This document shows positions 1 to 21,321 of a stretch of DNA of 27,234 bases, piece after piece; within the stretch, counting starts at the first letter, position 1; each line of letters begins with the position of its first letter. The stretch is from a virus. A model generated the notes under the pieces. It saw only the letters and a program-made list of their open reading frames with translations, had not been told where the DNA came from and made no database searches. The translations under genes and the position numbers were made by a program. Location: positions 1 through 27,234 of IMG/VR virus record IMGVR_UViG_3300030451_003595; one strand, 5' to 3'.

Positions 1-2148
1 TTGACCAGGTTCTTTTATATTATTGTTTAGTATACCATGTAATAATTCATGGGCAGCTACGTTTACATTTCTAACTTTCTGCGCAACTTCTCTATTAATA
101 TATATATCTCCATCTTCACTTATAAAACCATCAGAACTAGTAACGTTCATAGAGTTTTTCTTTCCTTCTTCAGTATTGTTGTACGCTTTTTGATATTCTT
201 CTTTTGAATTATAATCGTTTACAGTTCTACCTAAATCTTCTACACCTACAGTTTTAATATTTTCATCTAACCTTCTATCAACTGCTTCTCTAATATAAAA
301 TTCATTCTCTGTTTCTAATTCACTTAGTCGATCAATATAAGTTTGTTTAACAGTTTCAGGATTAGATTTTCTAAGTTTTTTATTTAATGAATTAATTTCA
401 TCTATATTTTTAGCGTATGACTTTAATTCATTAGGATTCATCATCCTTAATTCTTGAGAAACTTTATTTTTAGTATTTATTATTTTAGCTTCTTCTTGTA
501 CGATTTTAGCTTCTATTATATCTCTAGAGCTTTTGTCATAACTTTGCTTTAATTGCTCATTCAAATCGTTAATTTGAATAGCAGCGTCCATCATTACTTT
601 TCTATCAGAGGTAGGTGTTAAAGTATATTCAGCTGCATTTCTAACAGATTGTTTACTACTACTTAGTAATCCACCACTTGTTATACCTCCACCAGTGAAG
701 AACCCAATAATACCAGCATCAGCCCAGTTTTTAACATTATCACCAAACCACTTACCCCAACCTATATCATCAAACTTATCTAAAGTTAATTTATCTATTA
801 AACTAGTTGAAAATTCTGTAGCAGCTTCTGATAATCCTTCTGCTGTTGGATCTATAGCTAATCTTTTTAAAACTTGTTTTCCGTAAGAATCTATTAAAGC
901 TTTAGCTGCCTTCGTGTCACCAGCGCCCATTAAGCCTTTAGCTCTTTTCCATATACCTCTAGTTACTAACTCAAAAGCAGCTTCAGTTATACCTGTGCCA
1001 AGTGCGTTAAATGTTAATGTTGATAAAGCTTCGTCAGGATTTTCTTCTACTAATTCTTCAAACTTATTACCTGCTGCAGAAGCACCTAAAAGAGCTATCC
1101 CACCTGGACCTGCTGCTGCTAGTAAAAGTGATGGTATAGATTCTGCTACACCTCCAACAATTCTATCTGCTACATCTAAACTAAAAAAACCTTTTTCTCC
1201 AATAGCGTCTACTATACTATCATCTCTCTGCCAAATTAAATCACTACCTTCTTCAATTGTAGATTCTAAAATATCTTTTGGTATAGCTGTTATTGGACCA
1301 CCATGTATAAATTTAGTTTTATCTATCAAGTTTAATACATCTCCTTTTAATTGACTATCAGAACCTAACGCAGACGTTAAAATGTGATCAGCAATAGCCA
1401 TTTTATTAACCTCTACCATGTTAGAAAACTCTTGTGCTCCTTTAACTGTAGATAAAACACTTCTAGCTATTCTTGCTTCTTTATCCAAAGCCCAACCAAT
1501 AGGAGCTAAAACTTTATAAGCTTCAATAGAACCAGGATCTTGATCTGCTATATATTCATAGTAATCGTTAGCACTATCATAACCTAATTGTTCCCAAGCT
1601 GGTTTCTTTTCATCTTCAGACATTTGCTCTATATATTGAGCTCTTTTATCTACTTCTTCAATATCTTTTTGGAAATCATCTGCTGCAAACTCTGCGTCTT
1701 CCATTCTTTCTCTACCTTCCATGGGGTCAAAGTTAATTAAATCTTTATTAGCAGTTCTAATTAACTTATAGTTTTTACCATCTTTTTTTAAGTAGAAATT
1801 ACCTCTCTCAGTTTGTTTAATTTCAGGTGTTATAGGAGCTTTAAGATCCATATACATGATATCTTTTTCATATATTCTATCTTCATCAGATACTTCTTCT
1901 ATATCTTTTTCTAATCTTAAAACACCTTCACCAGGTTTTAAATCCATAGACTCACCTTCTAAAACAACTTCTTCTTGCTCTGGTTCGTATGCTAATACAC
2001 CACCAAGTGGTTCTAAAGTGTCTGTTTCTACAGTAGTTTCATCTTCAGTTTCCCACCCACTCCAATCTATATTACCATTGGGTTCACTATTAACTTCTTT
2101 TACGGATTCTTCAGTTTCCCAACCTTCCCATAAATCTTCGTTTTCCAT
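1..2148 (-). CDS. Large internal virion protein with HELLH metallopeptidase motif (3' end cut by window)
   Basis: An open frame of 716 codons runs from ATG at 2148 to the window edge without a stop, so the C-terminus is missing. Seen: an acidic N-terminus with a repeated WxGWETE motif (residues 8-13 and 29-34), a Gly/Ala-rich hydrophobic stretch (about 338-360), a second glycine-rich one (about 479-495), a charged helical region (about 520-630), then a zincin-like pattern with GDIYIN at 680-685 followed by HELLH at 700-704. The HExxH motif binds zinc in metallopeptidases, and this arrangement is known in large phage polyvalent/internal proteins. It is the last visible gene of the tail block, where crAss-like phages encode capsid cargo proteins ejected with the DNA. 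Inference: a cargo protein that cleaves host or virion targets, or itself. The third zinc ligand would lie outside the window. The start follows the upstream stop by 8 bases. Confidence 0.72.
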   Translation of the reverse strand, partial: MENEDLWEGWETEESVKEVNSEPNGNIDWSGWETEDETTVETDTLEPLGGVLAYEPEQEEVVLEGESMDLKPGEGVLRLEKDIEEVSDEDRIYEKDIMYMDLKAPITPEIKQTERGNFYLKKDGKNYKLIRTANKDLINFDPMEGRERMEDAEFAADDFQKDIEEVDKRAQYIEQMSEDEKKPAWEQLGYDSANDYYEYIADQDPGSIEAYKVLAPIGWALDKEARIARSVLSTVKGAQEFSNMVEVNKMAIADHILTSALGSDSQLKGDVLNLIDKTKFIHGGPITAIPKDILESTIEEGSDLIWQRDDSIVDAIGEKGFFSLDVADRIVGGVAESIPSLLLAAAGPGGIALLGASAAGNKFEELVEENPDEALSTLTFNALGTGITEAAFELVTRGIWKRAKGLMGAGDTKAAKALIDSYGKQVLKRLAIDPTAEGLSEAATEFSTSLIDKLTLDKFDDIGWGKWFGDNVKNWADAGIIGFFTGGGITSGGLLSSSKQSVRNAAEYTLTPTSDRKVMMDAAIQINDLNEQLKQSYDKSSRDIIEAKIVQEEAKIINTKNKVSQELRMMNPNELKSYAKNIDEINSLNKKLRKSNPETVKQTYIDRLSELETENEFYIREAVDRRLDENIKTVGVEDLGRTVNDYNSKEEYQKAYNNTEEGKKNSMNVTSSDGFISEDGDIYINREVAQKVRNVNVAAHELLHGILNNNIKEPGQ

Positions 2149-2156
2149 GTATTAGA

Positions 2157-3839
2157 TTATTTCTTTGTTTTAACTTCTCCGTTGGGTAATACGATTTTAT
2201 CACCTTTTTTAGCTTTTTTCATAGCTATTCTTAATTGTTCATCAGTTTTAGGTCTAAACGTTGTTTGTCTATATCCATACTTACCTACTTCAGGATTTGT
2301 AATTTCAAAATCTCCACTTCTCATTCCTCCACTTTTTAAAGCTTCTAAATATTCATCTTCAAATCCAGATTCAGAATTAAAAACTTTCAATATTTCATTT
2401 TCATTAGTCATATCTATAGGATATAATTGTTCTTTATCTCCTTTGATAATATAAATAGAGTTAGGGTCTATATTTTCATTCTCTATAGTTTCTTTGTCAT
2501 ACACATCCGTAGCAAGCTTGAAAGAATAATCTTTAACTTCACCTGGTTTTATAGCTCTTTTATTTAGAACTCTAGCTATGAATTTAGCTTCTGCTTTTTC
2601 ACCCTGTTTTTTAGCTATTACTAAAGCTTGTCTAGCTGATCTAACATTTTTGTCATAAAGATCTTGATCTTCTTCATTTATTTTTGTAGACTTATCATCT
2701 TTTTTTGAGGATTTTTGCTCTAGAGCTTTTCTTCTTGCTCTTTCACCTGGAGACTCTGGTCTTCTTTCTTCATACTTTTCTCTAACTCTATCTTCATATG
2801 TTGTTTCTCCGCTTGGACTTGTTTTTACATCTACTTTAGGACCATATAAACTATCAGCTCTTTCTACTAGTAACTTTAATGCTTCTTCTCTTTGTTCAGG
2901 TGTATTTAACCAAGGGCCTTCTTTTTGACCACCTTTCAGGTTAGGCCAATATGTTTCCATAGCTTTCTTATCATCTAAAATTGGTGAAACTACTTCTTTT
3001 AAATCTTCTCTGTACTTACTACCTTCTCCTATTTCGTAAACCTTCTTTGTTATTTCTGATTTACCACCATCTTTATCATAAGTAATTCTAACATCATCAA
3101 CTACGTATGTTTGAAGATCTTTAGTTCTTTTACTAAATTCTTGGTATAAAGGTTGTATCGCAGCATCTGGACTTTGAACAAATTGTATAGGATATTCTGG
3201 ATTTTCACCTGTCATTATGTCATTTAAACCATCTAATGATATTCTAGTTCCATCTTCACCTATTAAAATTGTTTGACCATTTTTAAACTCTGTTTTTATA
3301 TTACCACTATTACTGCTATATAAAGTTTTAATCAGTCCAATAACACCATTCTGTTTCTTAGCGGTTTCAACATCAGCTGGTATCAGTATACTACCTACTT
3401 CTCCAGCAATTTTTCCATCTGCTTCAGTAACAACATTGTAAAGAGCTTCTACATTAGGAGCTGCTGCTATAAAAGTATCCAATTGTTTATCTATTAAAGC
3501 TAAGTCTTTAGCTCCTTCAGCAATATCAATATCCCCTAACTGCATTCTTGAGTTTATTCTTGCGTAATCTCTAGCTTGCCCCATAAGAGAATCTTTTAAA
3601 CCAATGTTGAAATCACTATCTCCCACTCCTTCTGCAGACGTTATAGTCTTCATTCTTTCAGTTATAAGATCTGTCTCTTGCTGTTGTAGTTTTTCTAATC
3701 TAGCTCTTTGCTTCTGCCACTCAGACATTTCAAAAGCAAATTCCATATCTTTTTGTCTACCTACAGATTCTGCAGCTGTCTGTGTTAATCCGCTTATACC
3801 AGTTAATCTACCTGGTGCTACTGTTTTTACTTTTGGCAT
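2157..3839 (-). CDS. Probable internal virion (cargo) protein, 560 residues
   Basis: I do not recognise a named domain. The protein is hydrophilic and mostly helical in character. Residues about 35-75 form a charged, Gln/Lys/Glu-rich segment (EKLQQQETDLITER) likely to be coiled coil. A low-complexity basic/acidic tract lies around residues 345-390 (many R, K, E, S). The C-terminus ends in a Lys-rich tail. There is no signal peptide or membrane segment. It sits between the 342-residue helical protein and the metallopeptidase-motif protein, all transcribed together, so it most likely belongs to the set of internal proteins packed in the head or tail for ejection. The start ATG at 3839 has an AATTATG leader and follows the previous stop by 7 bases. 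Stop TAA. Confidence 0.6.
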   Translation of the reverse strand: MPKVKTVAPGRLTGISGLTQTAAESVGRQKDMEFAFEMSEWQKQRARLEKLQQQETDLITERMKTITSAEGVGDSDFNIGLKDSLMGQARDYARINSRMQLGDIDIAEGAKDLALIDKQLDTFIAAAPNVEALYNVVTEADGKIAGEVGSILIPADVETAKKQNGVIGLIKTLYSSNSGNIKTEFKNGQTILIGEDGTRISLDGLNDIMTGENPEYPIQFVQSPDAAIQPLYQEFSKRTKDLQTYVVDDVRITYDKDGGKSEITKKVYEIGEGSKYREDLKEVVSPILDDKKAMETYWPNLKGGQKEGPWLNTPEQREEALKLLVERADSLYGPKVDVKTSPSGETTYEDRVREKYEERRPESPGERARRKALEQKSSKKDDKSTKINEEDQDLYDKNVRSARQALVIAKKQGEKAEAKFIARVLNKRAIKPGEVKDYSFKLATDVYDKETIENENIDPNSIYIIKGDKEQLYPIDMTNENEILKVFNSESGFEDEYLEALKSGGMRSGDFEITNPEVGKYGYRQTTFRPKTDEQLRIAMKKAKKGDKIVLPNGEVKTKK

Positions 3840-3846
3840 AATTTAA

Positions 3847-4875
3847 TTATTTAATTCCTGCAATTTTATAAATTTGATCCACAGTTAATGTTTTACCAGC
3901 TGGAGAATTTCTAATTTTTAAAACTTTATCTACATCATCTAATGAAGTCCATTCTGGAGAATTAATTAAATCTTCAACTCCACTAGAACCTACATCTTCA
4001 ATTACTAAATTTGCATCTTCTAAAGCTTCTGATTCAGCATCTAAGGATATTTTTTCAGGCTCTGTTTCTAAATCTCTACGTTGTAATTCTTGTCTTGTCC
4101 GTTGTGTTGCTATATCATTAGGAGACATAGGTGCAGTAGTATCTGGAAGTGCTATTTGTGAAAATGGGTCATCTCCTGGATTTATTAATGGGGGAAGACC
4201 TCCATCAACAGGTACGTTAAAATCACCTGTTTGAGTAATTTTTTTATTAGTGTCTTTACCAGTGGATAATCCTCTACTAGCTTCTAAACCTAAAGCACCT
4301 AAAGCACCAGCCATATCTGCTGCTCTTTCTCCATAACCAAATTGTTCAACTCGTAATTGATCTGCTTTGCTTTGTTCGTAATCCATCTGCTCACCCATTC
4401 TACCAAGCTCTGCTTGTTGAACCATGAATTCACCTTTAGCTTCCAACTGTTGGTTATTAACCTCTTGTTTTTCTATATCAGCTGCAATACCAAGTTTGCT
4501 TTGTAAAGCTGCTTGTGCTAACGCTGTTGCACCACCAGCAGAAGTACCTGTAGCTCTTAAAGTATCTAAAGTATTTGCTAATGCTTTATCAGTTTCTTCC
4601 ACCTTCATTTGAGCAGCTTTAGTAGCTACACTCATGTTTTTATAAGGGTTATATATAGGTTTACTCATGTATGATTGCATAAGAGTATCTACATAACCTT
4701 GTTGTGTTTTTAACTGTTTTTTAGCTTGATTAGATTTTATCATAGCATCAACACCAACAACAGCTGAAGGCGCTGCTGCTGCTATAACACCAAAAGTGTT
4801 ATATTCAGTACCTGGCGTCTTACCTAGATATTGCTCAAAAAATGGCATTAATGTTGATGAACTTGGGAATCCCAT
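3847..4875 (-). CDS. Internal virion protein, helical, Ala/Gln-rich (342 residues)
   Basis: The N-terminus has a hydrophobic Ala-rich segment (residues about 28-45). A long helical region follows with the conserved-looking motif GTSAGGATALAQAAL (110-124) and a Glu/Gln/Lys-rich coiled-coil stretch (about 130-180). This layout (short hydrophobic helix, GTSAGG motif, long Ala/Gln helix) is, from memory, recurrent in marine podovirus and crAss-like structural proteins placed just after the tail genes, usually annotated as internal virion or unknown structural protein. The C-terminal half is acidic with a small helical end (SPEWTSLDDVDKVLKI). The gene lies 12 bases after the 564-residue tail protein and 7 bases before the next gene, so it is part of the same operon. 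Inference: an ejected core protein that may line the path for DNA across the envelope. Confidence 0.62.
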   Translation of the reverse strand: MGFPSSSTLMPFFEQYLGKTPGTEYNTFGVIAAAAPSAVVGVDAMIKSNQAKKQLKTQQGYVDTLMQSYMSKPIYNPYKNMSVATKAAQMKVEETDKALANTLDTLRATGTSAGGATALAQAALQSKLGIAADIEKQEVNNQQLEAKGEFMVQQAELGRMGEQMDYEQSKADQLRVEQFGYGERAADMAGALGALGLEASRGLSTGKDTNKKITQTGDFNVPVDGGLPPLINPGDDPFSQIALPDTTAPMSPNDIATQRTRQELQRRDLETEPEKISLDAESEALEDANLVIEDVGSSGVEDLINSPEWTSLDDVDKVLKIRNSPAGKTLTVDQIYKIAGIK

Positions 4876-4887
4876 AATTTTTTATTT

Positions 4888-6582
4888 TTAATATGAAACA
4901 ATAGCAAAATCCGAAGATACTGCAAATAATTCTTTTGCACCACCCACATCTGTAGTGGCGTCTGTTGATATTTTTACTGTAGCATAGAATCCTTTTATAC
5001 CTGCTACATTTTCACCATTAGGGTTTATTATAACCTGTCCTGGTCGTGTTACATTGTTACTTCTAAGGTTAGCTACGTATTTATTATTAAACCTGTTAAA
5101 ACCAATCCTATATTCAACTCCACTATCTGTATAGACACCTTCATCATAACTTAAAACTGGTTTTGCTGAATCTTGGTATTGATTTTGAGCACCATTAACT
5201 TTATCAAATCCTTCAAAGTCAGATAATATAGAATTAATTTCCCAACCGTTACTACCTTCGTAACTAATAGTTTTAAAGTTTTTGTAAACATTTGGACTAT
5301 TGTTAAATATAAAAGTAATATTAGCACCAGCTCTAACACCGTAAAAACTTGACATGTCAGATTCATTGTTATAATGCTCGTATAGTTCAGAAGTATAAAA
5401 ACTATAAAATTTATTTTTAAGACTGGACATGAACTTAGGTTTATAAGTATAAAAACTAGTCCAACCTAAAACATCTTCATCAAATGATGTAGTGTAATAA
5501 TATACTGCATCTTCTATTTCAGGTGTGAAAAATGGTGTTTGTTTTTGTAATGATACAACATAACCACTATTGTGAACATCCCAACCACCTACTATTCTAT
5601 CTTGTACAAAGCTTGTAAATGTAACATTTCCACCTGCGAAAGTATTAGGATTTGTGTCAATATAAATAGTTACTGAATTAAAAATACCTAAAACATTAGC
5701 TATAACAGGATCCCCAAATGCTTGTGGAATAGACACTTGCATACCTTTCTCTATCTTATCAATATTAGTTCCAGATACTGTTATGTAAAAAGGAGCAGTA
5801 GTATTAGAACTTTCATAAACACAAGTGAAACTATCACTAACAAACTCTTCGTTGATTTCTCCAAGTTTGTCCCTAAAAAAATCATTCATACCATATTGAG
5901 AGATACGAGTTAACCCATCTCTTGATAATCTCATTACAGAATTTCTATTCTTATCTGTAAAATATCTTCTATAACCATAGTAAGCAAAACTTTCAGGGTT
6001 TTTACTTATACCGTATTCGCCTACATAAGGTGTTACTTGCCCTATTACTGCGTTGGACGATGTTACAGTTCCTCCACCTTCAGCAGAATATATTGCATCT
6101 TTATCAATTAATGCTCTACTTACTTTGTCTTCTTGTAGTATAGCTAAGTTACTATCTAACGCATGTATCTTCTGTATAGACCCATACATTGGATCTACAG
6201 ATTTAGTTATATCTTCTGCTACAGAGAAAACATTAGTGTTATTTATATCAGTTCTTGAGTTAAATATACCTGAATATATAAGAGTATTTATTCTTCTACT
6301 TTGTAAATTTGAATCCTCTCTTAAATAAGCTCTAGTACCATAACCTGAACTAGTATTATTAAATCCACCTCTTATTCTAGCTTCTTCTACTGACCAGTTT
6401 CTAGTATTAACATTACCTGTTACTGCTTTTCCCTCTGAAGCGGGATTATTTGAAAATACAGCATAACCAGATGGGTTCCAAGGTAAACCTGGAAAAACAC
6501 CTTTATGAAGTGCAGAACCAGTAAGAATGTTATTAACTGTTTTTTTCAAAACGAAAGCGTTAAAAAACTTTATCTTAGCCAT
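4888..6582 (-). CDS. Tail stabilisation/muzzle protein, C-terminal part as a separate gene (564 residues)
   Basis: The sequence carries motifs I associate with the C-terminal half of the long stabilisation (muzzle) protein of crAss-like and related marine phages: WSVEEARIRGGFNN (63-76), an FSVAEDITKSVDPMYGSIQK segment (119-138), LQEDKVSRALIDKDAIYSAEG (149-169), GEYGISKNPESFAYYGYR (188-205), YFTDKNRNSVMRLSRDGL (207-224), and a C-terminal GIKGFYATV...KELFAVSS stretch (528-558). It is beta-rich with no signal peptide. In relatives these motifs follow an N-terminal half like the neighbouring 1133-residue protein. Here the two halves are separate genes 36 bases apart, with TGA and TAA stops between them. 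Role: caps the connector and short tail and holds DNA until ejection. The start ATG has an ATATATTATG leader and no Shine-Dalgarno sequence. Confidence 0.75.
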   Translation of the reverse strand: MAKIKFFNAFVLKKTVNNILTGSALHKGVFPGLPWNPSGYAVFSNNPASEGKAVTGNVNTRNWSVEEARIRGGFNNTSSGYGTRAYLREDSNLQSRRINTLIYSGIFNSRTDINNTNVFSVAEDITKSVDPMYGSIQKIHALDSNLAILQEDKVSRALIDKDAIYSAEGGGTVTSSNAVIGQVTPYVGEYGISKNPESFAYYGYRRYFTDKNRNSVMRLSRDGLTRISQYGMNDFFRDKLGEINEEFVSDSFTCVYESSNTTAPFYITVSGTNIDKIEKGMQVSIPQAFGDPVIANVLGIFNSVTIYIDTNPNTFAGGNVTFTSFVQDRIVGGWDVHNSGYVVSLQKQTPFFTPEIEDAVYYYTTSFDEDVLGWTSFYTYKPKFMSSLKNKFYSFYTSELYEHYNNESDMSSFYGVRAGANITFIFNNSPNVYKNFKTISYEGSNGWEINSILSDFEGFDKVNGAQNQYQDSAKPVLSYDEGVYTDSGVEYRIGFNRFNNKYVANLRSNNVTRPGQVIINPNGENVAGIKGFYATVKISTDATTDVGGAKELFAVSSDFAIVSY

Positions 6583-6618
6583 AATATATTATCACTTATT
6601 TATTGTTTTTATTACAGT

Positions 6619-9600
6619 TTAATTTAGTACAACTTGAAAATCGTTAGAGTCTGTAGATAAACCAGTTCCGTTAGCATCAGTTGCTTTAATTTTTAAATTA
6701 TAAGTACCAAAGTTTTTAGGATTTAATACATATAAAGAATATATAGTAGCTGTTTCTCTAAGAACGAATTGAGTAGCTCCTGGTGCTGGATTGGTATTTC
6801 CAACATTCTCTATTGTAAACACTAGCTCATCATTGCTTCTAGATAAATTTACACTACCATTATTCACTGCAGTTTTATTTATATCAAAAATCTTTATATC
6901 ACCAGGTGCTCCAACACTCTTAACCGTTAAAGCTGGTGGTTGTACCACCCAATTAGGAGCGGTATTTTGTAATGTACAATTTTCTATAACTAAAGGAACG
7001 TTAGTAAAATAAGATGATCCAGAATTATCTGAAACTAATAAATTAAACGTATAACTTTCAACAACATTAGAATTTGCTAAAAAAGTAAATAAAGCATTGT
7101 TCTGTATTGTAAAAGTATTTATATTAACTTTGTTTATTTTAAACTCAGATGTTCTATTAGCACCATTACCATCCACTACACTACTTATATCAATCACTGA
7201 ATCAGATGATATTATGTTACTATCTTGATTTACTAATTGAAAATTTAAAGTAACATCAGTATTAAGAGACATATTTTCATTTTGAATATACTGTAAACTA
7301 CCTCCAGTGGAAGTGTCATTACCTGCAGAATCTCTAAATCCTATAGGATAATAAGCAAAAGATAATTCACTATTTAGATCAGTAATTAAACCACTACTAG
7401 AACTTTCCCAATATATATCAATATTTGATAAAGTTGGACGTGTTTCAAAAACTGACAAATTAGTAAAACCTCTCTCAATTCCTTCTTGTAAAGCGCTATA
7501 ATCTGGTGTAGAGCCAATAGAAAAATTAGTTTCTAAAGTAGCTATAAAAGGATTTTCACTAGCTTTAAAAAATATATCATGAAAGTTGAATTTTAAAGTT
7601 GCTCCGGTACCAGTAGCGAAAAAAGGATACCAAGGGTTAGGAATTAAAGTTCCACTACCACTAGTTGTGTCTAAAACTTGTCCTGGATAAATACTACCTT
7701 TAGTTGTAGCCCATCTACCCATATCTTTAAATGATTTTATAGAAACAACACTTTGTCCACTACCTGTTATATTTAACTGCTGTACACTGTAACTTGGATT
7801 TGTAACTGAAGCATTATATATGGGATTTACCCTATTGAATAAAACAGTACTACTTGAAAACTCTGTATCATTAGAATTAACCTCTCTTAAATCTCTTGGT
7901 ACTTTATTTATATTATCACCTAATAAACTAATATTTGAAATAGAATTTCTATTAGAAAAACTAGGTAAAGAATCGGTCGATGCATAAGGTAGTGGAGATA
8001 ATGAAGTAGAGCTAGAAGGTGTAGCAGGAGTTGACCAATTAATATTACCAGCAATAGCCCCAGGTGCATATACGTTATAGTAATCTTGATCTTGTTGTTT
8101 TACAACTATTCTATACGTGTAATAACCCAGAGGATTTGTTTCTGAATATAAACCAGGATATCCTTCTATATCACTAGATTCTGGTATTTTATTTATTAAA
8201 TTAAAATCTAAACCATACCCTAAATAACTTAAACTATTATCATTAGAAGTATCATAAGGAGCGTATATAGTAGAATTTTTAGTATTAGTAGGTAGTAAAC
8301 TATCATCATTGAGCATAACGTTAGAAGATCTACCATACCTATCTATCAATACTATACCTACTTGGTAATTTCTATTTTGTTTAACCGTGTGTAAAGGTAA
8401 TTCTTTAGTTAAATTACTTGTTGTAGATTTTTTACTATAATCTAAATAGTAATCTAAGTTATTAAGAGAAGAATGTTTATCTATAAAATTAGCGTAAACA
8501 ACTCTATTAGAAACAACTTCTTGTGTTAATGCTCTAACCGGTATTTTATCATGTACCCTTGTTAAGTTCGCTTCTGGTAAAACTTTAATTGGTTTAGTAG
8601 ATAAATAATCATATTCGTAAGTGGTTGTAGCACCGGAAATATCACCTACATTAACTTCTTCTATAACTCTAACGTTTAATTCATCTGAGTTTTTAACTAA
8701 AATTTGTATTTCCTCTACTTTTAAAGCACTTTTAAGATCATTAGCCATAACTGGTAAAGTTAAATTTAGCTTTACTTGATCAACTCTATTTTCCATAAAG
8801 TTTACTATACCAGATTCTTTTGTTTTTTGTTCATCTTCATCTATGAAATAACCAAAGTTCTTTGGTACAAAAGCAGCTTGAGTAAATGGAGCCATTAAAG
8901 AATATTCTCCATCATCGTATTTAAATCTATAACTAAATCTAGGAAATTTATCTTTTAATAAATTTTTATCTCCTTTGTAATTAGCCGAATATTTAGGATT
9001 TTTTCTTTGTATGATGAGTGTAGTACCAGCAGGTATTGTTACGCCAAAAGTTCCAGATATAGTAACAGTAGTTGTTGTGCCACTAGTTATAGTATACGTT
9101 TTATCTACAGTTGTCGTACCAAATGGAGCTTTAACTATTAATCTATCTCCAACTGCATAGTCAACATTTGGAGCAGTTACAGAGTAAGACCCAACTAAGT
9201 TCATAATACTATCTCCTGACGCGTGAGCACCAAATGAATAAGTTATAATATGAGGTGGTAAAAACTCTTCACTATTAGATATTAAAGTACTACTATTACC
9301 AGAATTTAAAAATTCAAAAGGTTGATATGGAGCAAATTTAGCAACTGAAATATGATCTTCATTATAATAATAAGGGTTGCTTCCTACTACGCTAGCGTTC
9401 CATAACTCCCAAGAATCATTAAAAGCAGTTTCAACGTTTATTTTTCTAGGTTGATTTCTATCGTCAGTGAAAAATAATAAGTTCTCTAAAAGATTTACGT
9501 TTACTATAGGATGTGTTTTAGAAAAATTAAGAAAGTTACCAGCGACTAATACTCTAGATTGATTATTTACTGTGTTATATCTTACTATATAACAACCAGC

Positions 9601-10020
9601 TCCTTTATATATCCAATTACCCGGAAAACCACCACTAGTATCAACATAATCAGCTGGTGCAAAATTACTTAATCTATTATTAGAAGAATCCGCATAATCA
9701 GTTAAAAACATGTATATGTTATCTCCATTTAGATCCATATAATAGCCAATAACTTCTAACTTTGGAAAAGTTATTTCCCCTGGTTTTATACCAGTTAAAT
9801 ATCTTTGGTTTATTTTTTCTCTTTCTAATTGTTCAATAGAAGATTTTATAATTGTAATAACACTATTACCTAATACATTTTCTAAAGCCCCAACGTCACT
9901 TCCTTCTGACTTATTAACGTTTATATTTTGAGCGTCTCTATATTCACCATTAGGCACTAGTCTAGCGTCTAAGTCTTTGTTCATCTTAGACTTGAGAAAA
10001 GTATTATTAATTTGTGGCAT
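6619..10020 (-). CDS. Tail stabilisation/muzzle protein, N-terminal part with Ig/cadherin-like tail (1133 residues)
   Basis: The N-terminus (residues 14-52) has the pattern NKDLDARLVPNGEYRDAQN ... SDVGALENVLGN, which I recognise as the start of the long stabilisation/muzzle protein of crAss-like and marine podoviruses. The body is beta-rich (Ser/Thr/Asn/Tyr) with no membrane segment. The last about 225 residues look like two Ig/cadherin-type domains (about 910-1015 and 1020-1133), with strand-turn signatures YTFNLLVSDNSG and YNLKIKATDANG. The gene follows the 394-residue ring protein by 2 bases and is followed after 36 bases by a gene matching the C-terminal half of the same family. Role inferred: the wide distal part of the short tail. 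The added Ig-like domains could bind sugars on the host or brace fibres. Start ATG at 10020 with a TTAATTATG leader. Confidence 0.78.
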   Translation of the reverse strand: MPQINNTFLKSKMNKDLDARLVPNGEYRDAQNINVNKSEGSDVGALENVLGNSVITIIKSSIEQLEREKINQRYLTGIKPGEITFPKLEVIGYYMDLNGDNIYMFLTDYADSSNNRLSNFAPADYVDTSGGFPGNWIYKGAGCYIVRYNTVNNQSRVLVAGNFLNFSKTHPIVNVNLLENLLFFTDDRNQPRKINVETAFNDSWELWNASVVGSNPYYYNEDHISVAKFAPYQPFEFLNSGNSSTLISNSEEFLPPHIITYSFGAHASGDSIMNLVGSYSVTAPNVDYAVGDRLIVKAPFGTTTVDKTYTITSGTTTTVTISGTFGVTIPAGTTLIIQRKNPKYSANYKGDKNLLKDKFPRFSYRFKYDDGEYSLMAPFTQAAFVPKNFGYFIDEDEQKTKESGIVNFMENRVDQVKLNLTLPVMANDLKSALKVEEIQILVKNSDELNVRVIEEVNVGDISGATTTYEYDYLSTKPIKVLPEANLTRVHDKIPVRALTQEVVSNRVVYANFIDKHSSLNNLDYYLDYSKKSTTSNLTKELPLHTVKQNRNYQVGIVLIDRYGRSSNVMLNDDSLLPTNTKNSTIYAPYDTSNDNSLSYLGYGLDFNLINKIPESSDIEGYPGLYSETNPLGYYTYRIVVKQQDQDYYNVYAPGAIAGNINWSTPATPSSSTSLSPLPYASTDSLPSFSNRNSISNISLLGDNINKVPRDLREVNSNDTEFSSSTVLFNRVNPIYNASVTNPSYSVQQLNITGSGQSVVSIKSFKDMGRWATTKGSIYPGQVLDTTSGSGTLIPNPWYPFFATGTGATLKFNFHDIFFKASENPFIATLETNFSIGSTPDYSALQEGIERGFTNLSVFETRPTLSNIDIYWESSSSGLITDLNSELSFAYYPIGFRDSAGNDTSTGGSLQYIQNENMSLNTDVTLNFQLVNQDSNIISSDSVIDISSVVDGNGANRTSEFKINKVNINTFTIQNNALFTFLANSNVVESYTFNLLVSDNSGSSYFTNVPLVIENCTLQNTAPNWVVQPPALTVKSVGAPGDIKIFDINKTAVNNGSVNLSRSNDELVFTIENVGNTNPAPGATQFVLRETATIYSLYVLNPKNFGTYNLKIKATDANGTGLSTDSNDFQVVLN

Positions 10021-10022
10021 AA

Positions 10023-11207
10023 TTAATGTTTAATCCATTTAGATTTGTTTCTAAACACTTGTGATATTTCTTCTAACTTAATGTTACTCAATCTTATTTT
10101 AGCGTTTCTAAGTGTACTAGAACGCTCTCTTTTGAACCTATTTACAACATATTCTGGAACTTTAGATCTTCCAGATAAAATACCATGTGCTATATGCATG
10201 TACATTGCTTGTTCAGCCATTTTAGGTACTTTTAAATCTCCATCAACAGCTAATCCATCAGATATATATTCTAGTATTATAAGTTTATTAGCTAAATCAG
10301 ATGAGAAAGACATTTTACCTAATCTTTCATTTATAGTAAACCATCCGTTTATTTGCGTTATTTCTGGATTTAAACCATATCTTTCTCCGTAAGCTTGTTT
10401 CCACCAAGTGTAATCATAAACACCGTTAAAGTTAAATGGATCATAATTACCAGTAATGTTATTTTCATTAGCTGTTTTCCATCGTTCTTCAGTTATAGAT
10501 TGATCTGCATCTAAATTTTCTCCAAAAGCATCTTGTGTTGGTATACCTTGTACATCTTGTAAAGGTAGTTCAGTAGGATTAGAAGTTAATCTAGTTGGAT
10601 AAATAATATGTTTAATACCTAAATTATCAACCCAAGACATTTGAACGTAATTAACGTAGTCTTGTGGTATTGGTACAGATAAACTTGCTGGAATAGTAAG
10701 CTCTTGAGCTCTAATACTTTTTAATGTGTCATAGCTAAACTCTTGCAAACCTCTTTTAGCATGGAACATAACATCAGTTCTTTTCACTCCTGGAATCAGT
10801 TTACCAGCTCCGACATAGCCTACTATAAAGTTATTGATTATATCGTTTAAGGTGATGTAAGAATAACCACCATAGTTGTTATTGATAGCAAATTGCTTGA
10901 GTTGTATATAAAATCTACCGTTATACCCAACTGAAAGAGGATCCCTTAATTTTATTTGGTTAAACGCAAATATATAAGATAAATCTTCATCAATAGCAAC
11001 AAATCCAGCACCAGAACCATCATCGTAATATAATGTATAATTAGATACTGAAGTTATTTGTATACCACCTTCGTCAAAAGCACTAACTGCTACAGTGTCA
11101 AAACTCCAAGCGTTTATAGTTATCTCATTACCTGGTACATTACTTAAAACACCTAAGTCTTGTTGTCCAGCGTAGTATTGAGCATTAGTTTCTGTTAATA
11201 GTGCCAT
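10023..11207 (-). CDS. Connector ring / tail tubular protein (394 residues)
   Basis: A short beta-rich N-terminal domain (residues about 1-110) precedes a helical region, TLNDIINNFIVGYVGAGKLI (about 122-141) then VKRTDVMFHAKRGLQEFSYD and IPQDYVNYVQMSWVD. This is a pattern I know from structural proteins of crAss-like and marine phages that stack under the portal (P22 gp4-like or T7 gp11-like adaptors in role). The C-terminus is basic (VNRFKRERSSTLRNAKIRL) and could face DNA or a neighbouring ring. Stop TAA lies 2 bases before the muzzle start, and the start lies 3 bases after the previous stop, so it is translated in a tight operon with the other ring protein. The ring role is inferred from family memory and position; which ring it forms cannot be told from sequence. 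Confidence 0.72.
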   Translation of the reverse strand: MALLTETNAQYYAGQQDLGVLSNVPGNEITINAWSFDTVAVSAFDEGGIQITSVSNYTLYYDDGSGAGFVAIDEDLSYIFAFNQIKLRDPLSVGYNGRFYIQLKQFAINNNYGGYSYITLNDIINNFIVGYVGAGKLIPGVKRTDVMFHAKRGLQEFSYDTLKSIRAQELTIPASLSVPIPQDYVNYVQMSWVDNLGIKHIIYPTRLTSNPTELPLQDVQGIPTQDAFGENLDADQSITEERWKTANENNITGNYDPFNFNGVYDYTWWKQAYGERYGLNPEITQINGWFTINERLGKMSFSSDLANKLIILEYISDGLAVDGDLKVPKMAEQAMYMHIAHGILSGRSKVPEYVVNRFKRERSSTLRNAKIRLSNIKLEEISQVFRNKSKWIKH

Positions 11208-11210
11208 GTA

Positions 11211-11939
11211 TTATGATTTTTCGTTTACTTCTTCTTGTTGAATTTTCTGTGCTGCTACTTGTACTATTTGTGGGTCTCTTATAACTATACCAGCATAAAG
11301 CAGCATTCTTAATATTAACTCTGTTTGTTCTGAGTTATGTAATTCAAAATCTTGATAACCAGTTGTAGGATAAACTCCAGCTCCAGTACCAGTAGAAAAA
11401 ACAAAAGCTCCTGTTACAGGATCTATAGTGTAAGCCCATACAGGGTCTAATGGTTTTTTAACATACTGAACTTTCACATTTGTAGTGATAGAGCTCGGAG
11501 AAACAATTAATTGATTGTCTTCATAAAGACATATTGGATGTGTTAAAGAAGGAGCTGTTAAAGGAGATTTTATTAAGTTATAATAATCAGCTCTACCTAC
11601 TGTTTGGATTTCTGCTATAGGTCTACCTGTTTGTTCAGAGGTAAAAGATCCTAATCTATACAAATCTGTTGGTACTGTAAAAGGATTAGTACCTGTTGGC
11701 GCAGCTTCTGTTTTGAATTCTGCTATTTTTTCTTCTGTTATGGCAACTCTATCTGAGTATTCAACGTCAGACTGTGGTATACGTAATTGTTGATTTAAGT
11801 CTTCAAAATAACCCTCAAATATCTGTCTTTGTACTTGGGTACCTATTTTATTGAACTCATCTGGCGTCATATATCCACGCTGTTCTTTATTTAGTATAAG
11901 TAATACTGTTTTATATACTGTATCTACGCTTACTGCCAT
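11211..11939 (-). CDS. Head-tail connector ring protein, crAss-like (242 residues)
   Basis: The N-terminus is helical and carries ILNKEQRGYMTPDEFNKIG (residues about 15-33), then QRQIFEGYFEDLNQQLR, a signature I recall from small ring proteins of crAss-like and other marine podoviruses. The middle is beta-rich (FTVPTDLYRLGSF and KVQYVKKPLDPVWAY, about 152-166), and the C-terminus is helical again (TELILRMLLYAGIVIRDPQIVQ). The helix-beta-helix layout fits an adaptor ring under the portal. It is the first gene after a strong terminator (11952-11980) and is followed after 3 bases by the second ring protein. It therefore probably heads the tail transcript, or is reached by read-through. The ATG sits in an A/T leader (AATATTTAAAATG) with no Shine-Dalgarno. 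Confidence 0.72.
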   Translation of the reverse strand: MAVSVDTVYKTVLLILNKEQRGYMTPDEFNKIGTQVQRQIFEGYFEDLNQQLRIPQSDVEYSDRVAITEEKIAEFKTEAAPTGTNPFTVPTDLYRLGSFTSEQTGRPIAEIQTVGRADYYNLIKSPLTAPSLTHPICLYEDNQLIVSPSSITTNVKVQYVKKPLDPVWAYTIDPVTGAFVFSTGTGAGVYPTTGYQDFELHNSEQTELILRMLLYAGIVIRDPQIVQVAAQKIQQEEVNEKS

Positions 11940-11951
11940 TTTAAATATTTT

Positions 11952-11980
11952 AAAAAAAAAGGGTGGCGAAATACCACCCT
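11952..11980 (-). terminator. Rho-independent terminator after the 258-residue gene
   Basis: On the minus strand AGGGTGG and CCACCCT form a perfect 7-pair stem around a 7-base loop (TATTTCG), followed directly by a run of T. It starts 15 bases after the stop at 11996 and ends 12 bases before the next ATG. The T-run is only on the minus-strand side, so it acts on leftward transcription. Confidence 0.9.
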
Positions 11981-11995
11981 AATTATAATCACTTG

Positions 11996-12772
11996 TTATT
12001 TGGTCTTTTTATCTATTGATTTGTAAACTTCCATTCCTTCGTCAGTTTTAAACCAAGCAGCTAAAGCGCTGTATGGATTTTCATCAAAAGGTACGTTCAT
12101 TAATTTACGACCATTACTAGCCCAAGAGAAAGTTCTTTGATCTTGAGATAATGATATTATTCCAGCTTCAGTAGCTTTAATACCAAAATTCCTTAGTTCA
12201 ACATTTTCATCATTTGCTAATTCCATAAATAATGCTGGATTTGACTTAGCAAACAACAATAAATCTCTTTTTATCTCTTTAGAACTCATACTAGATACTG
12301 AAGAACCTAATTCAACTCTAAGAATTGCCTCTGCTTGATCAATATCTATACTGATAGCCAAAGCCATTGCTTCAACCTCTAAATGCAGATCTTCTAGATC
12401 ATCAGAAGCTTCTTGTACTTCATCTCTTTCAGCATAAATCTTACCCTTGTTTGGATGATAAAGTGAAAGTAGTTTTTGTAAAGCAACTTTTTCTTTTGAT
12501 ACCATTAAAACTCCATCTTCAAAAACAATATGTCCTAATGTTACAGGACCTTTTTGCTCATCTACAAATGGACTTCTCATATTAGTAGCATATCTAAGCT
12601 CTCTATTATAACCTTTTTCTTCATCAAAATACATTAGAGGTTTTCTCATAGAATGTCTAGAGTTAATTCTAAATGTTAATGGTGAAGCACCATGTAATAA
12701 GTGATAGTATCTATCTTTAATTTCCCAAGTGTCTTTTACAACCTCAGGTTTTTTCTTTTCTTTTGTTTCCAT
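11996..12772 (-). CDS. Conserved phage protein of unknown function, between two terminators (258 residues)
   Basis: I recall similar proteins in several marine phage groups but know no function. The N-terminal third has IKDRYYHLLHGASPLTFRI and a KPLMYFDEEKGYNRELRYATN stretch. The middle is acidic and helical (about 105-150, SDDLEDLHLEVEAMALAIS). The C-terminus ends in PYSALAAWFKTDEGMEVYKS. There is no signal peptide or membrane segment. I start at ATG 12772 because the longer frame's ATG (12808) lies inside the upstream terminator hairpin and would add a spurious hydrophobic leader. The gene is enclosed by terminators at 12801-12820 and 11952-11980, so it probably has its own promoter in the A/T leader or depends on read-through. 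Position among head genes suggests a virion or assembly role, which is inference. Confidence 0.75.
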   Translation of the reverse strand: METKEKKKPEVVKDTWEIKDRYYHLLHGASPLTFRINSRHSMRKPLMYFDEEKGYNRELRYATNMRSPFVDEQKGPVTLGHIVFEDGVLMVSKEKVALQKLLSLYHPNKGKIYAERDEVQEASDDLEDLHLEVEAMALAISIDIDQAEAILRVELGSSVSSMSSKEIKRDLLLFAKSNPALFMELANDENVELRNFGIKATEAGIISLSQDQRTFSWASNGRKLMNVPFDENPYSALAAWFKTDEGMEVYKSIDKKTK

Positions 12773-12792
12773 AATATAATATAATATAATAA
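12773..12792 (-). promoter_or_regulatory. ATTAT-repeat leader before the 258-residue gene
   Basis: Immediately before the ATG at 12772 the minus strand reads as repeated ATTAT units (ATTATATTATATTATATTATG). The same pattern stands before the scaffold-like gene at 15861-15875. It may be an unstructured translation-initiation region or part of a promoter after the terminator. No Bacteroidota TTTG/TAnnTTTG promoter could be made out. Confidence 0.35.
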
Positions 12793-12794
12793 TT

Positions 12795-12820
12795 AAAAAA
12801 GACCCCACCGAAGTGGGATC
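12795..12820 (-). terminator. Rho-independent terminator with UUCG loop after the capsid genes
   Basis: The minus strand reads GATCCCAC-TTCG-GTGGGGTC followed by TTTTTT: an 8-pair stem with one T-G wobble, capped by the very stable UUCG tetraloop. It begins 10 bases after the stop of the 100-residue gene at 12831 and would end the major capsid transcript. Confidence 0.92.
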
Positions 12821-12830
12821 TTATATTTAT

Positions 12831-13133
12831 TTAGTGAGATTGAATACAATCAGAAACCGCGTAAGTAGAAGTATCAATTGATACAAGTTTACCTGGGTTT
12901 TGTTGTGCATCTCTAAGAGCGTCAACTACCAATTTAATAAAAGTTGGTACTGCAGCTCCAACAGCAGCATGAGTCAAAGTAATAATTTGATTCTCAGAAT
13001 GCTCCATAGCGTAAGTAATTACAGTAGAAGTAGATCCTCCTGTAACTGCTACTATGTTATCTGTCGGTATTGGTTTTGTAGTGTTTTCTGATCCAGTTCC
13101 AGAACCAGTTACTGTTACATAAATATATCCCAT
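12831..13133 (-). CDS. Small capsid-associated protein candidate (100 residues)
   Basis: A small protein with a beta-rich, Thr/Val/Gly-rich first half (IYVTVTGSGTGS, then IVAVTGGSTSTVITYAM) and an amphipathic helix near residues 64-76 (TFIKLVVDALRDA), ending in a short beta-like tail. I do not recognise a family by name. It begins 27 bases after the major capsid gene and is followed 10 bases later by a strong terminator, so it probably shares the abundant capsid transcript. Small genes in this place often encode capsid decoration or cement proteins. That role is inferred from position and beta-rich composition only. The AAATTATG leader matches that of the capsid gene. Confidence 0.65.
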   Translation of the reverse strand: MGYIYVTVTGSGTGSENTTKPIPTDNIVAVTGGSTSTVITYAMEHSENQIITLTHAAVGAAVPTFIKLVVDALRDAQQNPGKLVSIDTSTYAVSDCIQSH

Positions 13134-15885: not shown

Positions 15886-18294
15886 TTATCTAGGCATAAA
15901 TTGCTCTAGTCCAAATCCACCTAAACTATCGTTTCCGGCAGATTCAAAATTTTTAGGTAATAAATCATTTTTTCTTTGATCTATTAATTCTGATTGTTGA
16001 GTAGCTTGTATTCTAGTTCTTTGGTCTTTTCGATCTTCTATTTCTTTTTCTTTAATGGTTTCAGCATCTACTTGTACTTTAGCTAATTGCATATTATATT
16101 GGAATTCTTTCTCCATTAATTGCATTTTAACTTGAGCTTCTCTCTCTAGTTTATTAGTTTCAAATTCAGATTTCATTTTCTCAATTTGAATTTTTTGCTC
16201 TGTTAAGACTTGTTGTTTCTGTGTTTCAACCATCGCTGTTTGTTCAGCTAATTGAGCGTTAGCTTGTGCTTGAGCTTGGATATTAGCTTGTTGCATCTCT
16301 TGGTCTTTCTCCTGTTTCTTTCTTCTTCGCTGCTTTAGCATTTGATTAGCTAATTTTAAATTATTAACTTCTCTAATATCTATGGCATCCTCTAAATCTA
16401 TTTGACCAGCTTTTAAAGCTATTTGTATGTTTTGCTCTAACACAGCTTTTTCTTCTTCATCTGGCTCTAATTCTAAGAATATACCAAAATCATGAATATT
16501 TAAATCTATCAATTCATCTAATGTACCTACATTGTATTTAGATATACTTTGTTCTAAAGACATCCTGGTTAATGGGAACATTAAAGAATCTGCTACTCTT
16601 AAAGATATATTTTCACAAGTTCTAAGAGTTAAAAATAAACCAGCTTGTAGAATATGTCTAGTTGCTACATTTGAATTAGCAGCCGCTAATTTCTGTAATC
16701 CAACTAAAGATTGTTTATCCGGTAAAGTACCATCTCTAGCCTCATTAAGTCCGGTTACATCTCTTATCATCTTTAAGTAATACTCATAAGTTTGAATTAA
16801 AGATTGGATTTTACCAAGACCATTTGATGTTTGAATCTCTTGTATTGGAACTTTTCCTGGATTCATTCCACCATCTTGCGTCATACTTCTACCAACAATA
16901 GAACCTGTTTGGAAATACATGTTCAAGGCTTCAGCTGGATTATAATTAGTGCCATTACCAAGATCTACTTCTGCTAAACCATCTACATCTACAAACACGC
17001 CATCAGGAACCATTCTAGACATTACTTGTTGTAGTTTTAAATGGGTTAATTGAATCATATCAGCAAAACCAGTTATTCTACTAACCACTGATTCTATCTT
17101 ACCTTTATACATTCTAGGAGCTACAATATTATAGTTCATGTGAACTTTTGTAGTATCCGCATAAGGTCTTGTCATGTTTTCAGCCATTTCCCATCTTAGC
17201 ATATTTTCATAACCTAAGATTTTAGCTCCAGTATATAATACTTCTATAGATCTAAAAGCTTTCTTAAAACTATCATTTTCAGGAGGATTAAAAGTATCTC
17301 CCTTTTCAATGGCTTTTTCTAAACCATTAACACCTTTTTTGATTTTAAATACTTGGTTGGTATAAGTTTTATATTCGAAATATAACACTTGAACAGTTTG
17401 ATTGTCATATCTACCACTCCAATTTCTATTGTAATTTTGATTTCCTGGATATTTTTGTATTTTCTCTAGTTCTTCAGGAGTTAAGTAAGGAAATTGTTTC
17501 TTTAACTCTGGTAAACTAACGGATTTTACTTCTCCAGCATAATATATATCTTCAAAATTAGGATCTTCTGTATAAGAATAAACTAAAGCTGCTGGATCAA
17601 CATATTTAACAGTTACACCTTCTGATCTATTAAAACCTGTTTTAACACAAGAAATACCGAGTACAGTTAAATCGTAATTTAATCTTTTACGTATTAAATT
17701 ATATTTATTTTTAGCTAATATAGTGTTTATAACTTCCTCTTCAGCTACTTCTACAGACTGCTTGTAATTCATCTGCATGTGTAATTCTAGCTCTTCTTCA
17801 TCTATAGGAGCATTTTCTCTATCTGGATTAGAATATAAATCTATACCTGTCGTTTGCTTTACTTTATCAATAAATTGTTTTGCATTTATATCTATTAATA
17901 TATTTTCTGCATACTTAGTTCTTTTTTGTACTGAAGTTGGGTCTTGAGCTATAGCTTTAATATCATAACTTCTTTGAGCCATGCCGTTGACTACTATATC
18001 AACAAACTTAGAAATAACCGGTACAGGTTTCCAATCTAAATTAAGATATGATAAATCTCCATTTATAGACATTTCATCTTTATATTTACGCACGGGTTGT
18101 TCTCCCCTAGCATAAAGCCTAAGATTATGGAAATTATTGTAATTAGTATTGAACCTATCTTGCCATGCCCTGTCACCTCTAAACCACTCAGTTTCAATTG
18201 CTCTACCGACTTGTAAACCGTACTCCCAACTTGCTTTCTCTGCGTCTGGTACAACTTGATCAGGAAAAGGACTATTATAATTAGTATTTATCAT
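15886..18294 (-). CDS. Portal protein, crAss-like (802 residues)
   Basis: The protein forms the dodecameric DNA channel at one capsid vertex and is the docking site for the terminase. Supporting segments are an N-terminal wing and clip region with FRGDRAWQDRFNTNYNNFHN (about 39-58), FVDIVVNGMAQRSYDIK, IRDVTGLNEARDG (near residue 510, typical of portals before the crown), and a C-terminal Gln/Lys/Glu-rich helix (about 650-775), the barrel helix of long podovirus portals. Length is large, in line with crAss-like portals that carry a long C-terminal barrel. Its ATG directly follows the TAA of the large terminase with no spacer, so translation is probably coupled. It ends in an FGLEQFMPR tail. 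Confidence 0.88.
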   Translation of the reverse strand: MINTNYNSPFPDQVVPDAEKASWEYGLQVGRAIETEWFRGDRAWQDRFNTNYNNFHNLRLYARGEQPVRKYKDEMSINGDLSYLNLDWKPVPVISKFVDIVVNGMAQRSYDIKAIAQDPTSVQKRTKYAENILIDINAKQFIDKVKQTTGIDLYSNPDRENAPIDEEELELHMQMNYKQSVEVAEEEVINTILAKNKYNLIRKRLNYDLTVLGISCVKTGFNRSEGVTVKYVDPAALVYSYTEDPNFEDIYYAGEVKSVSLPELKKQFPYLTPEELEKIQKYPGNQNYNRNWSGRYDNQTVQVLYFEYKTYTNQVFKIKKGVNGLEKAIEKGDTFNPPENDSFKKAFRSIEVLYTGAKILGYENMLRWEMAENMTRPYADTTKVHMNYNIVAPRMYKGKIESVVSRITGFADMIQLTHLKLQQVMSRMVPDGVFVDVDGLAEVDLGNGTNYNPAEALNMYFQTGSIVGRSMTQDGGMNPGKVPIQEIQTSNGLGKIQSLIQTYEYYLKMIRDVTGLNEARDGTLPDKQSLVGLQKLAAANSNVATRHILQAGLFLTLRTCENISLRVADSLMFPLTRMSLEQSISKYNVGTLDELIDLNIHDFGIFLELEPDEEEKAVLEQNIQIALKAGQIDLEDAIDIREVNNLKLANQMLKQRRRKKQEKDQEMQQANIQAQAQANAQLAEQTAMVETQKQQVLTEQKIQIEKMKSEFETNKLEREAQVKMQLMEKEFQYNMQLAKVQVDAETIKEKEIEDRKDQRTRIQATQQSELIDQRKNDLLPKNFESAGNDSLGGFGLEQFMPR

Positions 18295-20511: not shown

Positions 20512-20783
20512 TTGCTCCTCCCTTCAGCAAAACCTCTAAAAGATCTTTCTTCTTTTTTTTCTTGAGGTTTTTCATTTAATCTTTCTTCTTCTTCTTGAAT
20601 ACGAGTTAATATTTCAAAAGCATCAAATATAGCTAGTTTTTTAGTTGCAGCTGCGTTTTTAAGTCTATCAGCTGACACATCATCTCCAGAGTCCACAATA
20701 GCTTCTTTAGCCACTTTGATTAACTCTTCTACTGCTTTCTGTCCAGCTTGGATTATTTTCTTTTTCGTTTCCTTGGTGTTCAT
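20508..20783 (-). CDS. Probable terminase small subunit (91 residues)
   Basis: A short, all-helical-looking, charged protein: a Lys-rich N-terminus (MNTKETKKKIIQAGQKAVEE), an acidic turn (about 30-36), a helix with KLAIFDAFEILTRIQEEEER (about 49-68), then a basic disordered tail. It lies directly before the large terminase and overlaps it by 4 bases (GTGA), the usual place for a DNA-recognising small subunit. From memory, similar 80-120-residue proteins with a DAFEIL-type helix precede terminases in marine phages, but none has a fold I can name from sequence. The start at 20783 overlaps the upstream gene by 77 bases; it is the only ATG in frame near the start. Confidence in the gene is higher than in the function. 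Confidence 0.6.
   Translation of the reverse strand: MNTKETKKKIIQAGQKAVEELIKVAKEAIVDSGDDVSADRLKNAAATKKLAIFDAFEILTRIQEEEERLNEKPQEKKEERSFRGFAEGRSK
20515..20522 (-). promoter_or_regulatory. Shine-Dalgarno-like sequence before the large terminase GTG
   Basis: GGGAGGAG on the minus strand ends 3 bases before the GTG start. It is the only purine-rich Shine-Dalgarno match seen before a gene in the window; the other visible starts have A/T leaders. It lies inside the upstream gene's codons (EGRS), so it could be chance. Confidence 0.45.
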
Positions 20784-21321
20784 GCGTTACAGCTATATCA
20801 TTAGATTTCATACAATAAAGTCTTTCACCCTCTATAATAAACTCAAATTCTGAGAATGGGGTAAAGACCACAAGCGCTCCAGGTCTCACACCCACAGCAT
20901 CTAAGGAACTATTACCATATTTTAGTATCCCAAAGTTAGGTTGCTCCTTTCGGTTCTCTAAACGGTTTTTATTTAGTATTGGTTTTACAAAACAATAATT
21001 CAAATGAGGTTTAAGATTGTACATATAAATTTGCTCTGGTGAGCAGAAATATAAATCATCTTTAAAGTATGTAGATGAATTTTTCTCTACACCTCTTATA
21101 TCATAATATCTACGGAAAATATTATGGTGAACATATACTATATCGTCTTTTTTGATTTCAGTATTATAAGCAGCTGGAGTAGAAACTACAACTGCTTTTT
21201 TACTTACAAATTTATGATCTTCAATACTAGTATTAATAATTAGTTCGTTTTCATCAATTTTCTTAACGTTATCATACCTACTAAATAAAGGTTTGATAAT
21301 AAAACTGTATAAATTCTTCAT
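20707..21321 (-). CDS. Tandem GroES-like (Cpn10-type) protein (204 residues)
   Basis: Two halves each resemble a co-chaperonin barrel. The first (about 20-102) has KKAVVVSTPAAYNTEIKKDDIVYVHHN and ends SPEQIYMYN. The second (about 107-178) has CFVKPI, GILKYGNSSLDAVGVRPGALVVFTPFSE, then an EGERLYCMKSNDIAVT end. The order 'Gly/Ser-rich loop - V.G/KxGD.V.. - acidic strand - YxxxxxDIxxx' is that of GroES-like chains. A phage co-chaperonin would pair with host GroEL or change its fit for capsid folding, as T4 gp31 does. Here the two copies in one chain are unusual and the typical mobile-loop sequence is not obvious. The start overlaps the upstream stop by one base (TAATG). The last about 25 residues overlap the next gene and look unstructured. 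The family call is by pattern only. Confidence 0.55.
   Translation of the reverse strand: MKNLYSFIIKPLFSRYDNVKKIDENELIINTSIEDHKFVSKKAVVVSTPAAYNTEIKKDDIVYVHHNIFRRYYDIRGVEKNSSTYFKDDLYFCSPEQIYMYNLKPHLNYCFVKPILNKNRLENRKEQPNFGILKYGNSSLDAVGVRPGALVVFTPFSEFEFIIEGERLYCMKSNDIAVTHEHQGNEKENNPSWTESSRRVNQSG

Follow-up and report, generated by a model that had tools for sequence, protein, structure and literature searches.

The window analysed here, a stretch of viral DNA of 27,234 bases that makes up an entire IMG/VR record, carries a crassvirus-type virion module in which homologues of the terminase, portal and muzzle genes follow one another in order. The terminase large subunit (18295-20511, minus strand) matches phrog_6681 at E 3.5e-166, the portal protein (15886-18294, minus strand) matches phrog_6547 at E 1.1e-145 as well as PF16510, and the muzzle protein (4888-6582, minus strand) matches phrog_14478 at E 5.1e-40 and the Pfam family crAss_MUZ_C (PF25729; E 8e-7; score 29.9 bits, cut-off 27 bits). 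Several ORFs assigned to PHROG 'virion structural proteins' lie on the same strand as these three genes. Two large proteins are likely tail appendages, one with Laminin_G_3 repeats (25018-27156, minus strand; E 3.2e-66) and one with virion-structural PHROG matches (22135-25008, minus strand; E 5.2e-27). A GroES-like co-chaperonin gene (20707-21321, minus strand; phrog_13932, E 6.1e-15) is separated from the terminase by a single small ORF; in an elemovirus and in phi38:1, an annotated GroES directly precedes the terminase.

Past the muzzle gene, an ORF at 3847-4875 (minus strand) holds the position of crAss001 gp45 (cargo C1) and another at 2157-3839 (minus strand) that of gp46 (cargo C2). Both match only PHROGs of unknown function (E 0.18 and 0.0061, respectively), with no Pfam match. 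Next comes the 5' part of a giant polyvalent-type gene (1-2148, minus strand). The original prediction had placed this gene after a muzzle gene, and this was borne out, with two ORFs between them, as in the crAss001 order gp44, gp45, gp46, gp47. It had also proposed a Bacteroidota host, which is backed by the kinship of the terminase: of the 87 records matching it at E <= 1e-10, 86 take their names from Flavobacterium, Cellulophaga, Tenacibaculum or Maribacter, and the closest record is an environmental phage (64.7%). Fourteen relatives from MAG-titled contigs, of mixed phyla, were left out of the host inference.

The giant ORF translates into 716 amino acids and is open at the left edge of the window, with no stop, while its relatives reach about 2,300-3,700 codons. 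It was recognized by its identity to the 2,734-aa protein of L002/L003 (60% over 636 aligned columns). Since the record coincides with the window and offers no extension, the rest of the gene was taken from relatives. The translation confirmed the two elements on which the original prediction was built, namely HELLH at codons 700-704 (37-51, minus strand), the single HExxH in the ORF, and GDIYIN ahead of it, from residue 680 (94-111, minus strand). The latter would form the strand before the active-site helix and corresponds to the strand at residues 83-86 in the model of the L003 domain. Alignment to the complete domains of L003, L004 and L008 indicates that residues about 600-716 (1-351, minus strand) are the N-terminal part of a zincin domain cut by the contig end. 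Just 12 codons follow HELLH, so that a third metal ligand is not visible in the window. Among 20,000 shuffles of the window ORF, HExxH arose in 0.17%, and in 0.02% together with the hydrophobic pattern. HELLH very probably marks the active site of a zinc-peptidase-like domain.

A first scan returned one relative, the 2,734-aa protein with a complete zincin domain, and further loci came from scans that used this protein, the zincin or the conserved C-terminal part as query. The C-terminal scan gave at least 599 pattern matches, at least 477 of them encoding relatives, from which the best 80 were taken; the sample therefore leans to close kin. The examined set comprises 87 loci on 85 contigs (L003-L008, L013 and L014-L093), L025 and L041 being second views of the L005 and L007 contigs. 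HExxH was present in 83 of the 87 loci (81 of 85 contigs), that is in 74 of 78 ORFs, in 8 of 9 further loci and in L081, where the motif lies in the adjoining upstream ORF. The four other loci are L050, which has the HExxxH form (HEILGH), L006 (EELFH), L055 (none) and L083 (truncated contig). Nearly all examined copies of the giant protein in crAss-like phages of marine bacteria thus very probably carry the zincin domain.

Some of these loci deserve a separate description. The L006 giant protein (L006:6785-15190) has EELFH at residue 945 and keeps the third Glu, as a natural active-site variant of the same zincin family. The L050 giant gene, at 2249-12925, carries the HExxxH form and gave no significant match to the zincin profile (E 3). 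The L081 giant gene consists of two overlapping ORFs (3808-7881 and 7820-12535), the first of which carries the zincin motif; it is the one exception to a stop-to-stop length of 2,275-3,697 aa in 77 of 78 giant ORFs. This size, together with a multi-module, swapped architecture described below, agrees with the original assignment to the large phage polyvalent proteins.

Removal of seven near-duplicates (L017, L019, L025, L041, L052, L066 and L069) from the 78 ORFs left 71, three of which lack the motif within the ORF (L050, L055 and L081). When the spacing was varied among these 71 giant ORFs, a motif of the form HE-xn-H occurred with n=2 in 67 and with n=3 in four, and in none with n=0, 1 or 4-8. 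L050 is one of the four n=3 cases; the other three read HExxHH and so overlap HExxH. HExxH never appeared twice in an ORF and stood a median of 1,025 aa ahead of a DFDDT motif. Shuffles of the same 71 ORFs contained HExxH in a mean of 0.43 proteins, with a maximum of 3.

We aligned 68 of the domains, leaving out nine later loci; HExxH was the criterion for 67 of them, and L006 was added. The HExxH columns are conserved by choice, because the domains were picked by this motif. Independently of this choice, a downstream Glu, which in the window would fall past the contig end, was identical in 68/68 of these relatives, at 47-87 residues past the second His (median 59), and an Asp or Glu followed seven residues later in 66/68. 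An alignment-free count agreed: E-x6-[DE] was found 45-90 residues past the second His in 67/67 domains and in 55% of shuffles of the same stretches. The third ligand foreseen by the original prediction is thus present as a Glu throughout the aligned relatives, and it lies farther from the motif than the 15-40 residues that had been anticipated. In these relatives the pattern appears to match the gluzincin type, with HExxH on one helix and a Glu on the following helix. The same HExxH...Glu pattern is reported for zincin-like MPTases in the text on these domains in PMC5512222.

With the 68-row alignment and L003 as first sequence, AlphaFold (AF2) returned a model with pLDDT 88.3 and pTM 0.86, in which HELLH (101-105) lies in helix 98-111 and the invariant Glu, E166, starts helix 166-176. 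The model is confident and its arrangement is zincin-like, as originally proposed; its matches among solved structures are middling. In VIA, the best rows had Z 3.8-5.8, and a Z below 8 may mean merely a common arrangement. Rows 1-10 (Z 5.0-5.8) were chains of anthrax lethal and edema factor, Certhrax and PPEP-2, and rows 11-13 were YbeY-type, AQ_1354 being presumably a YbeY. We take some of rows 1-10 to lie over catalytic domains and others over non-catalytic ones, the latter zincin-like. The L071 zincin, only 16% identical to that of L073, gave a model of lower confidence (pLDDT 75.9) whose elements follow in the same order, and all nine of its VIA rows with Z >= 5 were lethal-factor chains. 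Because Z stayed below 6 in both models, we read the top rows as a shared arrangement and rejected kinship to the anthrax toxin components. Foldseek found no match to the L003 zincin model in the PDB at E <= 0.001; against BFVD it gave one match at E 3.2e-7, to an uncultured-virus protein, and an elemovirus structural protein at 0.013.

Family searches with the zincin gave nothing above cut-off in PHROGs or Pfam. The Pfam family Peptidase_M78 (IrrE-like; cut-off 22 bits) scored 12 bits with the window ORF (E 0.18) and 14.4 bits with L003, and matched 7 of the 68 zincin domains at E <= 1 (best 0.0016), none above cut-off. In a PDB sequence search the best row was ribosomal protein L23 (E 0.085), with a zinc endoprotease at 2.2. 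The sub-threshold M78 score, and the fact that the window holds just the first part of the domain, are what could be said for HELLH being a chance match. We rejected this explanation as extremely improbable, given HExxH in 67/71 non-duplicate relatives against 0.43 expected, the invariant third Glu and the confident AlphaFold model.

When the window is compared with L004, the DNA of other genes is 68-74% identical, while the end of the window gene reaches 89-96% DNA identity to L003, L004 and L008 near the motif; the rise starts within the block of residues 601-650. Across 7.4 kb upstream, L004 and L008 share about 95% identity. Within their giant proteins, identity exceeds about 90% at the start (~50 residues), in the zincin and over the final ~850 residues, and the modules between differ. 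Over 2,278 pairs of the 68 domains, zincin identity and C-terminal identity were nearly uncoupled (Spearman 0.14), and pairs with 86-92% identical C-termini can bear zincins that are 15-22% identical. In L071/L073 and L074/L079 the C-termini are 89-92% and the zincins 16-20% identical (89% and 16% for L071/L073). On the basis of this uncoupling and of the module changes in L003, L004 and L008, the zincin domain appears to be exchanged wholesale between phages as a cassette, with the metal-binding pattern kept.

Such swapping would be expected if the zincin were an ejected effector cutting a host or defence protein, its replacements following an arms race with changing targets. The uncoupled identities and the replacement by unrelated zincins speak for this possibility, as does the recurrence of the same cassette beside differing modules in the window, L003, L004 and L008, and the option is given in the discussion of these domains in PMC5512222. 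On the other hand, an optional effector should often be lost, yet HExxH is kept in 83 of the 87 examined loci, and no target is indicated. We regard the effector role as a tenable but tentative explanation and as a close rival to self-processing of the giant protein, the role that we favour; replacement of the cassette by unrelated zincins accords almost equally well with action on the host.

Self-processing would involve the other modules of the chain. About 1,000 residues after HExxH lies the DFDDT motif, which we take to be of HAD type; PHROG 415 (polynucleotide kinase) matches this region at 3.1e-4. The module that follows the zincin, at residues about 930-1055 of L003 (L003:2974-3336) and the equivalents in other relatives, resembles sigma-70 region 2 weakly but repeatedly, which we treat as a lead. 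With a profile of 32 of the 68 modules, chosen by eye, RNA polymerase sigma factors filled places 1-20 among 43 PDB rows (best E 0.0016), these rows being mutually related. The unselected 68-row profile also had a sigma factor first in the PDB (E 0.049), a longer 68-row profile had one second (E 1.3), and two disjoint by-eye subsets of 15 and 13 modules each had one first (E 0.024 and 0.11). Pfam Sigma70_r2 matched 4/68 modules at E <= 0.5 (best 0.0011), none shown above cut-off, and 3/32 of the by-eye modules at E <= 1 (best 2.3e-4).

A KFS.[ST] motif recurs in the linkers of the giant protein between the zincin and the C-terminal module. Outside the post-HAD linker we counted 35 occurrences against 5.9 +/- 2.6 (largest 13) in 40 composition shuffles, a count in which sites shared by descent are treated as independent; KFS was missing from the HAD core and appeared a single time in the zincin core. 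Directly behind the zincin, linkers of the K[FAMI]S type were seen in 16/67 proteins, barely above random 140-aa windows (17.6%), which does not support the idea of a KFS-like site behind every zincin. The codon AAG is used in 30/54 KFS.[ST] sites against 18.5% overall, which is like its use in other KF pairs (367/716, p 0.57). We accordingly rejected KFS linkers as DNA recombination sites and place the signal at the protein level. The motif is present once in the MW202828 protein and in none of crAss001 gp45-47, gp49 and gp50, elemovirus gp18, Gundel gp74 and phi38:1 gp101.

Considering the predicted fold and the sequence patterns together, we give an even chance to the reading in which HELLH serves as the catalytic motif in a zincin-like metallopeptidase domain of gluzincin pattern whose main job would be self-processing of an ejected polyprotein. 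Its parts differ in strength. From the position of the gene, the giant protein is likely packaged in the virion and ejected; from its ligands and model, the domain quite probably has zinc peptidase activity; and that self-processing rather than host cleavage is its main job seems to us evenly balanced. In this model, the giant multidomain protein, encoded at the crassvirus cargo-gene place, would be packaged in the virion and ejected together with the DNA. The zincin would then refold and cut the long chain at the linkers between modules, and the freed modules, including the sigma-70 region 2-like one, could act separately in the host.

Retention of the domain in nearly all members and at one place suggests a role common to all, such as processing, and PMC7824862 contains a like argument for the peptidases of jumbo phages. 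Against self-processing are L006 with EExxH, L055 without HExxH, and the virion RNA polymerase (vRNAP) of N4, which bears a comparable MPTase domain and, as stated in the N4 passages of PMC5512222, is packaged unprocessed. No cleavage product is known. The linker after the zincin is not generally enriched and the KFS.[ST] count ignores kinship, so that a processing site stays a hypothesis. The same N4 passages report that the region with the MPTase domain is required for encapsidation, and the domain in the giant proteins might likewise be mainly structural, a zincin fold serving packaging or refolding, with a structural metal and little proteolysis. In line with such a role, L055, which lies outside the profile set, scores on the zincin profile (E 4.5e-21 in a three-protein search); L006 also scores, but was in the profile set. 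A purely structural role, however, would not require the general-base Glu, and the whole HExxH, this Glu included, is kept in 83 of the 87 examined loci. We therefore consider a mainly structural domain rather improbable.

A more specific version of self-processing, which we put forward as a speculation that is more likely wrong than right by a good measure, is that the swappable zinc peptidase cuts at the KFS-type linkers and frees a virion-delivered sigma-like module that redirects the RNA polymerase of the host towards the early genes of the phage. For elemovirus, a cultured relative, the record is labelled as a partial genome and annotates no gene as RNA polymerase. If true, this would be a protease-activated, virion-delivered sigma factor. 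The question bears on the role of zincins in ejected phage proteins and on how transcription starts in crAss-like phages that have no recognised virion RNA polymerase. The analysis also takes a motif at a contig edge to a domain found on at least 81 environmental phage contigs, whose natural swaps, with the same C-terminus and an unrelated zincin, are a ready comparison between self-processing and host targeting.

Zincin domains in phage polyvalent proteins are already known (Iyer et al. 2017, PMC5512222); the sections of that paper on these domains cover phages and plasmids and offer both the self-processing and the effector hypotheses. The MPTases described there and the domains found here share an HExxH helix, a Glu on a second helix and variable inserts, and both sit within large multidomain phage proteins. 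The HExxxH form described there recurs here in L050. The paper sorts its MPTases into 12 clades. The present group differs in the swapping of cassettes seen here between near-identical genomes. The main text of that paper contains 'crass' and 'sigma' 0 times; the main text of Yutin 2021 contains no 'protease', 'peptidase' or 'zinc', and PMC8776804 and PMC7077304, consulted on elemovirus and Gundel proteins in virions, have 'mass spectrometry' 0 times. Within the literature searched, we found no description of this zincin group in marine crAss-like phages, of its swapping or of its possible sigma-like neighbour.

The N4-type vRNAP, as presented in the portion of PMC12633501 on its C-terminal subdomain C1, is likewise giant and ejected, and that subdomain has a conserved HExxH, which the giant proteins here share. 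Unlike N4 vRNAP, they have the HAD-like motif and the sigma-like module. No Pfam RNA polymerase domain passed its cut-off when seven giant proteins were searched in full and an eighth in part; Rpb1 domain 5 gave sub-threshold matches in 2 of 68 zincin segments (best E 0.0057).

Among crassviruses, gp47 of crAss001 (L094:6120-13145) occupies the same place as the giant gene, after the muzzle and two cargo genes, and is annotated as 'putative RNA-polymerase subunit'. It has HEAFH at residue 2157 and a downstream EExxAE segment, and this region looks like a zincin too, judging by these motifs; unlike in the giant proteins here, the HExxH lies near the C-terminus. Neither gp47 nor crAss001 gp45, gp46, gp49 and gp50 significantly matched the C-terminal and zincin profiles. 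According to the virion protein data in PMC10172136, gp47 was found in virions by mass spectrometry. The MW202828 protein UOF82488.1 (L095:741-12320; 3,859 aa) contains HEFGH twice, at residues 1615 and 2500. In the Flavobacterium elemovirus (NC_055853), gp18, a 'structural protein' of 3,694 aa encoded after the tail and muzzle region, did not significantly match the C-terminal profile (E 0.044). It did match the zincin profile at E 2.3e-10 (three-protein search), over HEIFH at 1543, and this cultured phage is a possible laboratory system.
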